DNA of 48,708 nucleotides, from positions 1 to 48,708 of IMG/VR virus record IMGVR_UViG_3300010354_000140. One strand, 5' to 3'. This document shows positions 33,456-39,468 of the stretch, one piece after another. Position 1 is the stretch's first letter, and each line of letters begins with the position of its first letter. Source of the stretch: a virus. The translations under genes were made by a program, and so were the position numbers. The notes beneath the pieces are model-generated. The model made no database searches and was not told the DNA's origin. It saw only the letters and a program-made list of their open reading frames with translations.

Positions 33456-34823
33456 ATGCTTAAATGCTCAGACTTTGCTAAACACGCTCTTCAACTCACT
33501 CTCTACCCCAAGCAAGCTGAAATTCTTGATGAATTTTTCCAGCCGGGTATGTCCCATGCAGTATGGGCTCTCGGACGACGCTCTGGCAAAACGCTCATGG
33601 CAGCTATTGCCTGCATCTATATGTGCTTCGTCCTAGAAGAAGAATTTCGTAGACGCGTCAGAAAAGGAGAGCGATGGTACGTGGTAACAATTGCAAACTC
33701 TCAAGATCAAGCTCGCATTGCTCTCAACAACATCCGTCAGCTCATTATTGAAAGTCCCTTCGCTCAAGAAATTGTTCGCGAAACTGCTGACATCATTGAA
33801 ATTAGCAACAATTGCGTGTTTAAAGCCATTCCCACTTCCGGCCGCGCTGCTCGTGGCTTGGCTTGTGCCGGAGCAGTATTTGACGAGCTTGCTTTTGCCA
33901 ATGAAGGCGATGCCAACAATGGTGGTCGCGGCATTTACGACGCACTTTCTCCAGCCATTGCCCAGTTCGGAGGCAAAGGACGCATCCTTGAACTATCCTC
34001 TCCATGGCTAACTGACGGCATCTTCTACCAACATTTCAAAGAAGCATCATCAGGACGTTTCCCTTTTATGCAGGCCGTGAACCTGCCCACTTGGGAAATG
34101 AATCCAAGCATTTCGCAAGAGTTTCTTGACACAGAGCGTCAAAGAGACCCAGAGAAATTTAAAGTCGAATATGGGGCGCAGTTCGCCAGCAATCTTTCGG
34201 CTCTCGTAGCTAGTGATGTTATTGACGCTTGCATCGACGATCGTAGAGCCGTCCTACCTCCACGCCCACAGTTCCAAGGTGCTTATGTCTTGGCCCTTGA
34301 CCCTGCCAGGGGCGGCGTTGGCCGTGATGATTACACTGCTTGTATTGTTCATTTTGAAAACGGCACGTTAGTTGTTGATAAGTTCCATTCTTTTGTTGCT
34401 GATTTTGAAATCAATGGAAGGATGGAAGTAAATATCAATGCAGTGGAAGATTGGATTAAGGAGCAACATCGCCTCTATATCTTTGACACTATTGTGATGG
34501 ACCAGTTCAACAGCGCTGGCACCATTCAAACACTTGCAACTGATCTTCCCATCACTGAACTTACTTGGACTGTTAGTTCCAAGATGAAAGCTTTTAGCAA
34601 AATGCGAGAGCTGTTTAATGCAGGGCAAATCAATCTTTATCGCCACGAAAAAGCAATTATGCAGCTTAAAAACCTCACTGTTATCTACAAACCTAGTGGG
34701 CAATGGACTGTTACCGGCGGCAAAGCTACTGGCATTGACGACTTAGCTTTTGCCATGGCTGGTGCTATTCTCGCCGCAAGCAAAGACGATGATATTGCGT
34801 GGATCGAAAGTCTTATCTCCTAG
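33456..34823 (+). CDS. Terminase large subunit, 455 aa
   Basis: Starts MLKCSDFAKHALQLTLYPKQ at ATG 33456. Walker A is VWALGRRSGKTLMAA (K45), Walker B AVFDELAFANEG (D143, E144). The nuclease RNase-H fold shows D282 (LALDPARGGVGRDD), D349 (TIVMDQFNSAG) and a third acidic cluster D428-D429 (GIDDLAFAMAG). The length is typical of large terminase subunits. It cuts and pumps DNA into the prohead. Unusually it lies on the opposite strand from the portal and all other structural genes. No small terminase subunit was recognised nearby. Confidence 0.92.
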   Translation: MLKCSDFAKHALQLTLYPKQAEILDEFFQPGMSHAVWALGRRSGKTLMAAIACIYMCFVLEEEFRRRVRKGERWYVVTIANSQDQARIALNNIRQLIIESPFAQEIVRETADIIEISNNCVFKAIPTSGRAARGLACAGAVFDELAFANEGDANNGGRGIYDALSPAIAQFGGKGRILELSSPWLTDGIFYQHFKEASSGRFPFMQAVNLPTWEMNPSISQEFLDTERQRDPEKFKVEYGAQFASNLSALVASDVIDACIDDRRAVLPPRPQFQGAYVLALDPARGGVGRDDYTACIVHFENGTLVVDKFHSFVADFEINGRMEVNINAVEDWIKEQHRLYIFDTIVMDQFNSAGTIQTLATDLPITELTWTVSSKMKAFSKMRELFNAGQINLYRHEKAIMQLKNLTVIYKPSGQWTVTGGKATGIDDLAFAMAGAILAASKDDDIAWIESLIS

Positions 34824-34875
34824 TATGATTTTCGAATATTAGTTCCGTCATGATGTGACTTATTGCGAATTAACT

Positions 34876-35118
34876 ATGCAGGAAACTAAGTTTCTTGTTC
34901 TTCTTCTTGAAAATGGCGTGTCAAGACAAACAGCTCTTCAGCTTCTTGCCGCCGAGCATTTATACATGCCCACTCTCCTTCCTAAACTCCGCCTGCATTT
35001 GAAGTGTCTTAAGACTACGGAAGGTCTTGAGCGATGCCTTCAGGAAAGCGAAAGCTCGTTTGAAGAATATTGCCAAAAGCATCCCGACGCTCAAGATTGT
35101 CGCGAATACGACGTTTAA
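34876..35118 (+). CDS. Small protein with CP12-like C-terminus, 80 aa
   Basis: The C-terminus SFEEYCQKHPDAQDCREYDV closely resembles the last segment of CP12: C-x8-C with E-x-x-P-x-A/E-x-x-C-R-x-Y-D at the very end. In CP12 this disulfide loop binds GAPDH in the Calvin-cycle GAPDH-CP12-PRK complex. The first 55 residues (MQETKFLVLLLENGVSRQTA and following) do not match CP12 and lack its N-terminal cysteine pair and AWD-VEEL core. They look like a separate helical domain. It follows the terminase by 52 bases, on the same strand. GAPDH binding is inference; alternative: chance resemblance of a short cysteine motif. Confidence 0.55.
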   Translation: MQETKFLVLLLENGVSRQTALQLLAAEHLYMPTLLPKLRLHLKCLKTTEGLERCLQESESSFEEYCQKHPDAQDCREYDV

Positions 35119-35289: not shown

Positions 35290-35374
35290 GCCTTCGTAGC
35301 AGAACTGGTTTATGCAACGGATTTAAAATCCGTAGGGAATTTCTCCCATGCGGGTTCGAATCCCGCCGAAGGCA
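35290..35374 (+). tRNA. tRNA-Leu (anticodon UAA)
   Basis: Acceptor stem GCCTTCG (35290-35296) pairs with CGAAGGC (35367-35373), discriminator A, no encoded CCA. The anticodon stem is ACGGA/TCCGT with loop TTTAAAA, giving anticodon TAA (35324-35326). A class II long variable arm (AGGGAATTTCTCCC) and the T arm GCGGGTTCGAATCCCGC complete it. It reads UUA codons, which an AT-leaning phage in a higher-GC host would use often. It closes the plus-strand terminase transcript, immediately before a terminator. Confidence 0.95.
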
Positions 35375-35411: not shown

Positions 35412-35624
35412 TTATGGTTCCTTATGACTCTCCCGTGTAGCCTCAAGGCTACATTTCCCATCGTCCCAATGGCGCATAACGCCAGCAACAATAAAGCAAT
35501 TAGTAATTAAATACGATGCAAAGATGAAAGTGCGCAATAAGGCAATCCTGTCTGCCTCCTTGTTACAAGACGTTTCTTTGCTCCCCAATGCTTTCGCCCA
35601 TATCCGCCACACTTTCCTTTGCAT
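35412..35624 (-). CDS. Possible small membrane protein (up to 70 aa)
   Basis: The C-terminal part has one clear membrane segment (ALLRTFIFASYLITNCFIVAG) followed by a charged tail MRHWDDGKCSLEATRESHKE. The ATG at 35624 has no ribosome site and overlaps the upstream gene by 62 bases. A perfect AAGGAGG lies inside, eight bases before an ATT codon at 35546, which could start a 44-residue form. A seven-pair hairpin (TGTAGCC...GGCTACA, 35440-35457 region) falls in the coding 3' end. Unknown function; an inhibitor of superinfection or a lysis protein are possibilities only. Confidence 0.4.
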   Translation of the reverse strand: MQRKVWRIWAKALGSKETSCNKEADRIALLRTFIFASYLITNCFIVAGVMRHWDDGKCSLEATRESHKEP

Positions 35625-37960: not shown

Positions 37961-37990
37961 AAGGGGGCCTTTGAGCCCCCTTCTTTTTTT
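37961..37990. terminator. Bidirectional-type terminator between nrdA and nrdB
   Basis: AAGGGGGC-CTTTGA-GCCCCCTT forms an eight-pair stem (37961-37982). Rightward it is followed by TTCTTTTTTT, a strong T-tract; leftward the tract is TTTGCTTT, weaker. It sits directly after the nrdA stop. In the leftward direction it could reduce nrdB expression relative to nrdA. Confidence 0.65.
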
Positions 37991-39441
37991 TATTCTGCGC
38001 AGCTGCTACAGAATCCAGCCTCTAGATTACAAGACATTGAAGGGCCTTCAGCTTCAGACTCGTCGTCTAAGCCAAACATGCTCTTAAAGTCGTCATCCAA
38101 TGCAGCGTATGCATCATCCTTCCGTTGAGTGTCCGGAAGAACTTGCAAGCTGTAGTACAGGCTCGTCTGAGGAGATTCTAGCCAATCACGAAGAAACTCT
38201 TCGTCGTAAATAACCATATCTGACCAACTGTTATACGAATAGCCATGGAAAAGACCAGTGCGCTGATATAACTGAACAATGCCATTTGCTACGCGCTTGT
38301 AATTAGTCCAGCCCACTTCTGCAGCCGTTTCCACTTCGCCATAGTCAAAACTTTCCACGCCAAACGTGCCAGAGTCTCGATCAACATGACGCGCAATAGG
38401 CGGAGCAATTTCAGGAGCCGTAGTAAAGCCCCGAGTGTCAAGATAACGATAAGAACACGATGCAGTGGGAGCAATGCAAAAGGCACGTTCCATCTGATGC
38501 TTCCTAGCAATCACTGCTGCGCCCATAATTCCCCTATGCAAAGCATATACCGCCTTGCCAGCCGTCGTATTCATCCAGAATTCCCGCCAATTTGTCGCAT
38601 CATCAATTAAATAAGCATCCAGCGCATGGCCAAATTCTTCATAACTAATGTCATGAATGGCAAGGAAATTAGCTAGGCCAAGCACGCCAAGTCCCACTTG
38701 CCTGTCAATGGAAGGAGGAAGATATTCGCCCGTATCACCCACGCCAGTTGTAGGATGCAGCTCGCACAATTGCTTCATGCCTTCCATAAAGGCACCTTCA
38801 ACATTGTCAATTGAGCAGGCGCCAAGATTAATATGTTGCAGCAGGCAAGTGCCACGATGCGGAAGATAAACTTCCAGGCAAACATTTGCACGAATGCGCT
38901 CACCTTGCGCATTAAAGCGAATCTTATTCAGCCAAATATCTCCACTACCAATTCCCTTTAACAATGCAGCACGGAAATCAGCAGTGGTTTTAGCCAGAAA
39001 ATCTTGATCCACGTTAATACAACGCTTCACCCAAGGCAGTTCATTTCGCGAAGCTTCAACAAATTCCAGAGCATCAGGATGGTCATAGTCAATATGCAAA
39101 ACTACGGCCCCGTTCTTATAGATGCCTCCTCGGCGCAAAATTTCATTAAGCGTGGAATAAATCTTGCCGAAGCTTACTGGCCCGCTTGCAACCAAGCCTT
39201 TGCCATTTTCAGCATTCCTTTCACGGAGAGAAGACAAATGAACAGCGACGCCCGCACCATTGCGCAGCCCGTGACTAACAAACCGCCAAGATGCTTCAAT
39301 ACCATCTGGCCCCTCCATTGAATCCTCTACGTTAAAAACAGTGCAGCTAACGGGCAGGCGACTATCAGGATTATTCAGCCAGTCTTCTACGCGTCCAGTT
39401 CGTGCAATTGCTTCGCAGCGTGCTTTTTCTTTGAGAGCCAT
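37990..39441 (-). CDS. nrdA: Ribonucleotide reductase alpha subunit, compact cyanophage type, 483 aa
   Basis: ATG 39441 is preferred to TTG 39450. Active-site parts are visible in order: SCTVFNVEDS (first redox Cys), a ten-strand barrel, RANVCLEVYLP (the N-x-C-x-E thiyl centre), CLLQHINLGAC (second redox Cys), APTASCSYRYL (substrate phosphate loop), TSLYYSLQVLP (the Tyr-Tyr relay pair of class I) and a C-terminal CSSCAE. The protein lacks an N-terminal ATP cone. The tyrosine pair and adjacent beta gene indicate a class I enzyme even though the size resembles class II proteins. This compact group in marine cyanophages was first called class II and later reassigned to class I (established knowledge). 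Confidence 0.87.
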   Translation of the reverse strand: MALKEKARCEAIARTGRVEDWLNNPDSRLPVSCTVFNVEDSMEGPDGIEASWRFVSHGLRNGAGVAVHLSSLRERNAENGKGLVASGPVSFGKIYSTLNEILRRGGIYKNGAVVLHIDYDHPDALEFVEASRNELPWVKRCINVDQDFLAKTTADFRAALLKGIGSGDIWLNKIRFNAQGERIRANVCLEVYLPHRGTCLLQHINLGACSIDNVEGAFMEGMKQLCELHPTTGVGDTGEYLPPSIDRQVGLGVLGLANFLAIHDISYEEFGHALDAYLIDDATNWREFWMNTTAGKAVYALHRGIMGAAVIARKHQMERAFCIAPTASCSYRYLDTRGFTTAPEIAPPIARHVDRDSGTFGVESFDYGEVETAAEVGWTNYKRVANGIVQLYQRTGLFHGYSYNSWSDMVIYDEEFLRDWLESPQTSLYYSLQVLPDTQRKDDAYAALDDDFKSMFGLDDESEAEGPSMSCNLEAGFCSSCAE

Positions 39442-39468
39442 AGACAACAAAAGAGGCCTTCCGGCCTC
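39442..39468 (-). terminator. Terminator-like hairpin just upstream of nrdA start
   Basis: GAGGCC-GGAA-GGCCTC (GNRA-type loop) followed by TTTTGTTGTCT, then ATG of nrdA. The same arrangement (hairpin, T-rich stretch, start codon) occurs at 20676-20703 and 46105-46143. It could end transcription from the right or act as an attenuator in the nrdA leader. Confidence 0.55.

Follow-up and report, generated by a model that had tools for sequence, protein, structure and literature searches.

We analyzed a 48,708-nt window of viral DNA (IMG/VR record IMGVR_UViG_3300010354_000140, positions 1 to 48,708), in which a small gene follows the terminase large subunit gene, terL, on the same strand. terL lies at 33456..34823 (+) and matches the PHROG terminase large subunit with an E-value of 1.8e-32; its open frame runs from TTG 33411, and ATG 33456 is the likely start. 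The small gene had been annotated as an 80-aa frame at 34876-35118 (+), and this frame exists, with ATG at 34876, a stop ending at 35118 and the C-terminal end SSFEEYCQKHPDAQDCREYDV. In a comparison of start codons, however, among 169 fused homologues, nine carry ATA at the position of ATG 34876, and 162 have ATG or GTG seven codons 5' of it. Translation therefore probably starts at GTG 34855, giving a full coding sequence of 87 aa (MTYCELTMQETKF...CREYDV, 34855..35118, +), with ATG 34876 as the alternative. Residue numbers below refer to the 80-aa frame.

The gap from the end of terL is 52 nt to ATG 34876 and about 31 nt to GTG 34855, and a transcript common to both genes, as the initial annotation had it, is possible. 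The small gene may also have its own promoter, because the terL stop is followed immediately, in this and other lineages, by a putative −10-like element (TATGATTTTC..., 34824..34839, +). Its variants include TATGATTTTCAAACAAT, TATGTTCAAGAATTT, TAGAATTTTCA and TACAATTTTCA; in nearly all lineages the spelling is TATGAT, TATGTT, TAGAAT or TACAAT, then TTTTCA or TTCAAG. A sigma-70 consensus scan called no promoter in this region. Just 3' of the gene is a tRNA-Leu (taa) at 35290-35374 (+), and two relatives (L010, L024) have, by eye, a different-tRNA-like sequence at that place. A small open reading frame (ORF) at 35412-35624 (−) encodes a membrane-like stretch, FIFASYLITNCFIVAGVMRHW. DNA at about 35433-35504 matches the unrelated cyanophages S-RIP2, KBS-P-1A, S-SSM7 and S-H34.

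The protein has two parts. Residues 1-48 (34876..35019, +) form an N-terminal domain that our searches found only in phages and that is a separate gene in S-CBS4-type phages. A linker, residues 49-56 (35020..35043, +), is of variable length and sequence among the aligned homologues. Residues 57-80 (ESESSFEEYCQKHPDAQDCREYDV, 35044..35115, +) form a CP12-type C-terminal module. The HMM comparison proposed in the initial annotation bears out this assignment: Pfam CP12 (PF02672) matches residues 56-79 with an E-value of 8.9e-7 and 30.0 bits, above the curated cut-off of 22.7 bits. The match covers profile positions 47-70 of 70, the C-terminal third alone, so for the window protein it is correct that only the GAPDH-binding end is present.

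Read directly, the cysteine codons of the module are TGC for Cys66 (35071..35073, +) and TGT for Cys75 (35098..35100, +). The claimed C-x8-C is thus literally present at the extreme C-terminus, as the canonical CP12 pair CxxxPxxxxC (EYCQKHPDAQDCREYDV). A longer motif had been claimed as well, E-x-x-P-x-A-x-x-C-R-x-Y-D; its portion P-x-A-x-x-C-R-x-Y-D is there, but the protein lacks the leading glutamate, having glutamine three residues ahead of the proline. Every CP12 end position is kept except the last residue. The tail ends in YDV, and most cellular CP12 proteins end in YDD, YDN or YED. Four cellular CP12 proteins (L310, L312, L264 and L308) end in YDV or YDL rather than YDD or YDN, and since such ends exist, we do not hold the YDV end against a CP12 assignment.

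Independent comparisons agree with the profile. A phmmer search of PDB sequences has a CP12 polypeptide (3zdf, E 0.003) as its top match, and seven of the eight best matches are CP12 or CBS-CP12 chains, the remaining one being a designed repeat protein. The CP12 and CBS-CP12 matches on the tail include 3zdf, 6gfo, 5nmu, 3b1j, 3qv1 and 6kez, several of them from GAPDH complexes. When an AF2 model of the window protein was searched with Foldseek, the top four PDB chains were all CP12 (E 0.57-2.9), and 6gfq_C superposed at 1.4 A across 20 alignment columns, with 55% identity. These rankings support the profile-based homology and would not prove it by themselves. NCBIfam gave no match to the window protein, and a search of a plasmid collection gave none. 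Among the 34 aligned homologues, 21 match CP12 at E<=0.01, as many as there are tails with cysteines in that alignment. Cysteine invariance in alignment A4 was not used as evidence because its tailed sequences were chosen by that motif. On these sequence comparisons, the CP12-type module of the tail is genuine.

The N-domain is predicted to be helical (residues 2-12, 17-30 and the start of a helix at 34-68). The AF2 model has three helices with a pLDDT of 78.5 and a pTM of 0.40, a low global confidence. Pfam and PHROG searches, which bear on a possible terminase small subunit or other described phage family, gave no match for the N-domain, in agreement with its initial description as unrelated. 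The fold search with the whole model was dominated by the CP12 tail: for the N-domain, Foldseek returned just CP12 chains and two unrelated long chains, and the sole VIA-align listing, 6kez_M (Z 3.0), was too weak for use. In public phage records, tblastn found N-terminal similarity solely to gp009 of Synechococcus phage S-CBS4, which has the same post-terL position. A scan of genome contigs found the N-domain at one locus, and of 291 cyanobacterial genomes searched, the one with that locus was the sole match. This is a Dolichospermum sp. metagenome-assembled genome (MAG), whose contig JAKOGY010000249.1 (L262; very low coverage according to its title) carries terL-like, portal-like and N-domain frames. 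Because of the terL-like and portal-like frames, we count it as probably a phage contig binned with its host.

IMG/VR scans gave 94 distinct N-domain proteins, which fall into four states. In state A (28 distinct proteins), the N-domain stands alone (45-65 aa) and is followed by a separate small CP12-tailed gene, as in S-CBS4 gp009 and gp008. State B (23, including the window) has the N-domain fused to a tail with both cysteines, and a separate tail gene was not found. State C (25) is fused with both cysteines gone, and its tails are of two types, DDYMPDxxGxESLREYDA and DANDGFFPENASLREYDV. State N (18) has the N-domain alone with no tail gene detected, in some cases with a shortened or altered neighbor. 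Membership of states B and C was decided by matching sequence patterns, on which their counts therefore depend. Among relatives, the fused and the split architecture never occur together.

The two S-CBS4 genes are both hypothetical proteins in the phage record. gp009 is the N-domain, and gp008 matches Pfam CP12 with an E-value of 1.8e-6 over profile positions 16-70 of 70. Its AF2 model is a helical hairpin plus tail (pLDDT 84, pTM 0.61). The top three Foldseek matches to this model, 6gfo_F, 6gfo_E and 6ghl_F, are CP12 chains of GAPDH complexes, with probabilities of 0.87-0.99 but weak E-values of 0.09-0.55 for the CP12 matches. VIA-align listed generic helical hairpins such as Rop, with CP12 absent from the top 50 rows, and for that reason we used the Foldseek ranking alone for the gp008 fold. 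Ancestrally, the tail probably belonged to a more complete CP12-like gene adjacent to that of the N-domain.

The initial annotation had treated C-terminal cysteines that are not conserved in homologues as counting against its claim, and this objection applies in part. Of 48 distinct fused homologues, 23 retain both and 25 lack both; none has a single one. The cysteines are thus lost together, in two tail types, and cysteine-bearing tails are constrained like the N-domain, while split outgroups carry the neighboring tail gene. Loss of a real function fits this pattern better than a chance motif does.

A terL tree (72 rows, midpoint root) places the fused states B and C in one clade (94/96), except for one discordant row. 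The fused clade has as its sister a clade of split-gene phages that includes S-CBS4, and deeper lineages with split genes occur too. Because the fused state is a single clade adjoining split-gene phages, it likely arose from the split state by one fusion, which is the simplest reading of the tree. B and C rows are intermixed, so the cysteines were lost more than once or the gene has recombined. The discordant row, L089, has a cysteine-less fused gene and a terL that groups with tail-less state N phages, so gene exchange between lineages is likely.

We estimated dN/dS by pairwise counts, with the two cysteine-less tail types kept apart; the ratios are rough because synonymous sites are near saturation in distant pairs. 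In state B the tail gives 0.08-0.09 and the N-domain 0.11. Of the two state C groups, the larger has 0.12-0.13 (tail) and 0.03 (N-domain), the smaller 0.10 (tail) and 0.07 (N-domain). Purifying selection on the tail is about equal to that on the N-domain while the cysteines remain, and is relaxed relative to the N-domain in the larger cysteine-less group.

Ribonucleotide reductase (RNR), an NADPH- and thioredoxin-dependent enzyme of dNTP synthesis, is encoded in the window at 37990..39450 (−; Pfam 8.2e-19, PHROG 2.7e-43) and in all 19 long records (49-107 kb) of the phage group. The usual companions of phage CP12, transaldolase (talC), 6PGDH (gnd), G6PDH (zwf) and D1 (psbA), had no family match in these 19 records; some of the records may be fragments, so the absence of pentose-phosphate pathway (PPP) genes and psbA there does not amount to proof.

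Canonical CP12 of cyanobacteria and plants binds GAPDH when oxidized and recruits PRK. The window protein shares with it the CxxxPxxxxC at the extreme C-terminus, an acidic residue before the second cysteine and the Y-D end. Canonical CP12 differs in having an AWD_VEEL core, a motif outside the matched profile positions and absent from N-domain alignments. It also has an N-terminal cysteine pair spaced by 7-8; the window protein has no conserved pair, its Cys44 and Cys54 being spaced by 9 and not conserved among homologues. The last residue is D or N in canonical CP12 and V here, and the window N-domain is unrelated and of phage type.

The CP12 proteins of cyanomyoviruses (phrog_2603 or phrog_627 type; S-SSM5, Syn33 and others; PMC3906501) are likewise phage-encoded, with similarity to CP12 that is mainly C-terminal. 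Their N-terminal parts are not matched by the window protein in tblastn, and phrog_2603 matches it at residues 59-79 only (E 0.007). They belong to T4-like myoviruses, often with PPP genes alongside; the S-CBS4 group has the gene beside terL and none of those genes found in its 19 records. The marine virus AG-345-O18 has an 87-aa CP12-tailed protein (L035:3815-4078; Pfam 5.8e-7) that falls in phrog_2603, a family listed as of unknown function. Its gene is directly 5' of a 972-aa ORF and has close matches in P-SSM2 and P-SSM5.

In architecture, the protein resembles the GapB extension, Chlamydomonas adenylate kinase 3 (ADK3) and CBS-CP12, in which a CP12 C-terminus is fused to an unrelated domain; here the N-domain is a separate, tail-less gene in S-CBS4-type phages. 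Those proteins are cellular enzymes or sensors, in contrast to a partner domain that is viral and small. Argininosuccinate lyase and ADK3 are further carriers of CP12 tails (PMC9406205). The S-CBS4 pair occupies the same post-terL locus and differs in being two genes rather than one fused gene, and in the helical hairpin that precedes the tail of gp008.

We consider the best explanation, with a probability of roughly 0.58, to be that the protein is a redox-gated inhibitor of the host Calvin-cycle GAPDH (Gap2) that spares NADPH for phage dNTP synthesis. The host would be a cyanobacterium, the phage a siphovirus and the gene product a CP12-tail effector. On oxidation, the last ~20 residues would form the CP12 disulfide loop, and the C-tail would enter the active-site cleft of Gap2. 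Occupancy of Gap2 would slow NADPH use in carbon fixation, and the spared reducing power could go to the phage RNR encoded ~2.9 kb away. The helical N-domain would stand in for the PRK-binding half of CP12 and probably supplies oligomerization or a second partner. Because the PRK-binding half is absent, PRK binding, and with it the canonical GAPDH-CP12-PRK complex, would not be expected. The gene would have arisen by a single fusion of the N-domain gene to the C-terminal part of an adjacent CP12-like gene, the two being still separate in S-CBS4 and similar relatives.

Computation supports this reading through the tail's homology to CP12, the existence of split and fused states, the paired loss of cysteines, purifying selection, and RNR without PPP genes found. 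From the tail sequence we infer GAPDH binding, and we further infer the redox gating, the NADPH benefit and all function of the N-domain. The CxxxPxxxxC extremity binds or acts on GAPDH in CP12, GapB and ADK3 (PMC9406205), the C-terminal cysteine pair is the GapDH2 docking site of CP12 (PMC9623430), and the GAPDH active site can be fully occupied by the CP12 C-tail (PMC10253348). Cyanophage CP12 has been proposed to conserve NADPH for making nucleotides, and in the light the NADPH/NADP+ ratio doubles in infected cells (PMC5082946).

Several points weigh against a Gap2 inhibitor. The gene adjoins terL, not RNR, and the tail ends in YDV rather than the common YDD, YDN or YED, though YDV and YDL are known in cellular CP12. 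Any function of the CP12 tail is dispensable, since about half of the distinct fused proteins lost the cysteines and a search for a second CP12 in the cysteine-less records found none. A CP12 tail also need not mean GAPDH inhibition: CBS-CP12 forms no GAPDH/PRK ternary complex (PMC9406205). Overall, the initial observation of a CP12-like tail on this protein is confirmed, and the interpretation placed on it is partly supported.

Less probably, but still a reading to take seriously, the tail is a thioredoxin-dependent redox switch on some activity of the N-domain, perhaps its contacts with DNA, with terminase or within an oligomer, and GAPDH binding is secondary or absent. What stays constant at the locus is the N-domain (dN/dS 0.03-0.11); it adjoins terL in almost all lineages, many phages have it with no tail, and a switch has been proposed likewise for CBS-CP12, whose tail acts without a ternary complex (PMC9406205). 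In the split state, however, the tail belongs to another protein, which has a helical hairpin of its own, so the tail was not originally a switch for the N-domain. Tentatively, one can also imagine a bifunctional fusion effector, with the tail on Gap2 and the N-domain carrying a second partner or building a new GAPDH complex, that would couple the light-dark redox state of the host to a terminase-side phage process without the usual PPP genes.

We think it unlikely that the protein is a bifunctional adaptor whose tail docks Gap2 while the N-domain brings another factor or sequesters GAPDH into phage assemblies, with the fusion mirroring an existing partnership. Gene fusion is a classical hint of physical or functional partnership, and the two genes are adjacent in the split lineages found and fused in one clade. 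Adjacency alone, however, makes fusion by deletion likely without any partnership, no partner is known for the N-domain, and the AF2 model of the fusion is globally of low confidence (pTM 0.40). That the window tail is a functionless, decaying remnant of a lost CP12 gene appears very improbable: many relatives did lose both cysteines or the whole tail, but cysteine-bearing tails are under strong purifying selection (tail/N-domain dN/dS ratio 0.7-0.8) and the window tail retains the CP12 end positions bar the last. Chance resemblance we discount almost entirely: although the match spans only ~24 residues, its E-value is 9e-7, homologues and the neighboring S-CBS4 gene support it independently, and the end C-x3-P-x4-C-x2-[YF]-[DE] occurred in 1 of 307,647 ORFs from 300 shuffled windows, so that ~0.003 such ORFs are expected per window against 1 among the 863 ORFs of the real one.

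Fusions of CP12 tails (GapB, ADK3, CBS-CP12) and phage CP12 were already known. Our literature searches did not find a description of the CP12-tail locus of S-CBS4-group siphoviruses, of the fusion to a phage-only domain or of the paired cysteine loss; within the portions of the sources available to a search for both CP12 and S-CBS4, no link between the two was found. Control of the Calvin cycle by phages has been described mainly for T4-like myoviruses, in which CP12 and pentose-phosphate genes often occur together. In the widespread siphovirus group described here, the one gene of this sort found encodes a CP12-tail protein; it lies beside terminase and is labeled hypothetical in the S-CBS4 record. 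Close relatives with split, fused and cysteine-less versions provide a natural experiment on Gap2 binding and carbon fixation, with S-CBS4 and its host Synechococcus sp. CB0101 as a named pair for direct comparison, and the gene fusion offers a handle on the function of the N-domain.
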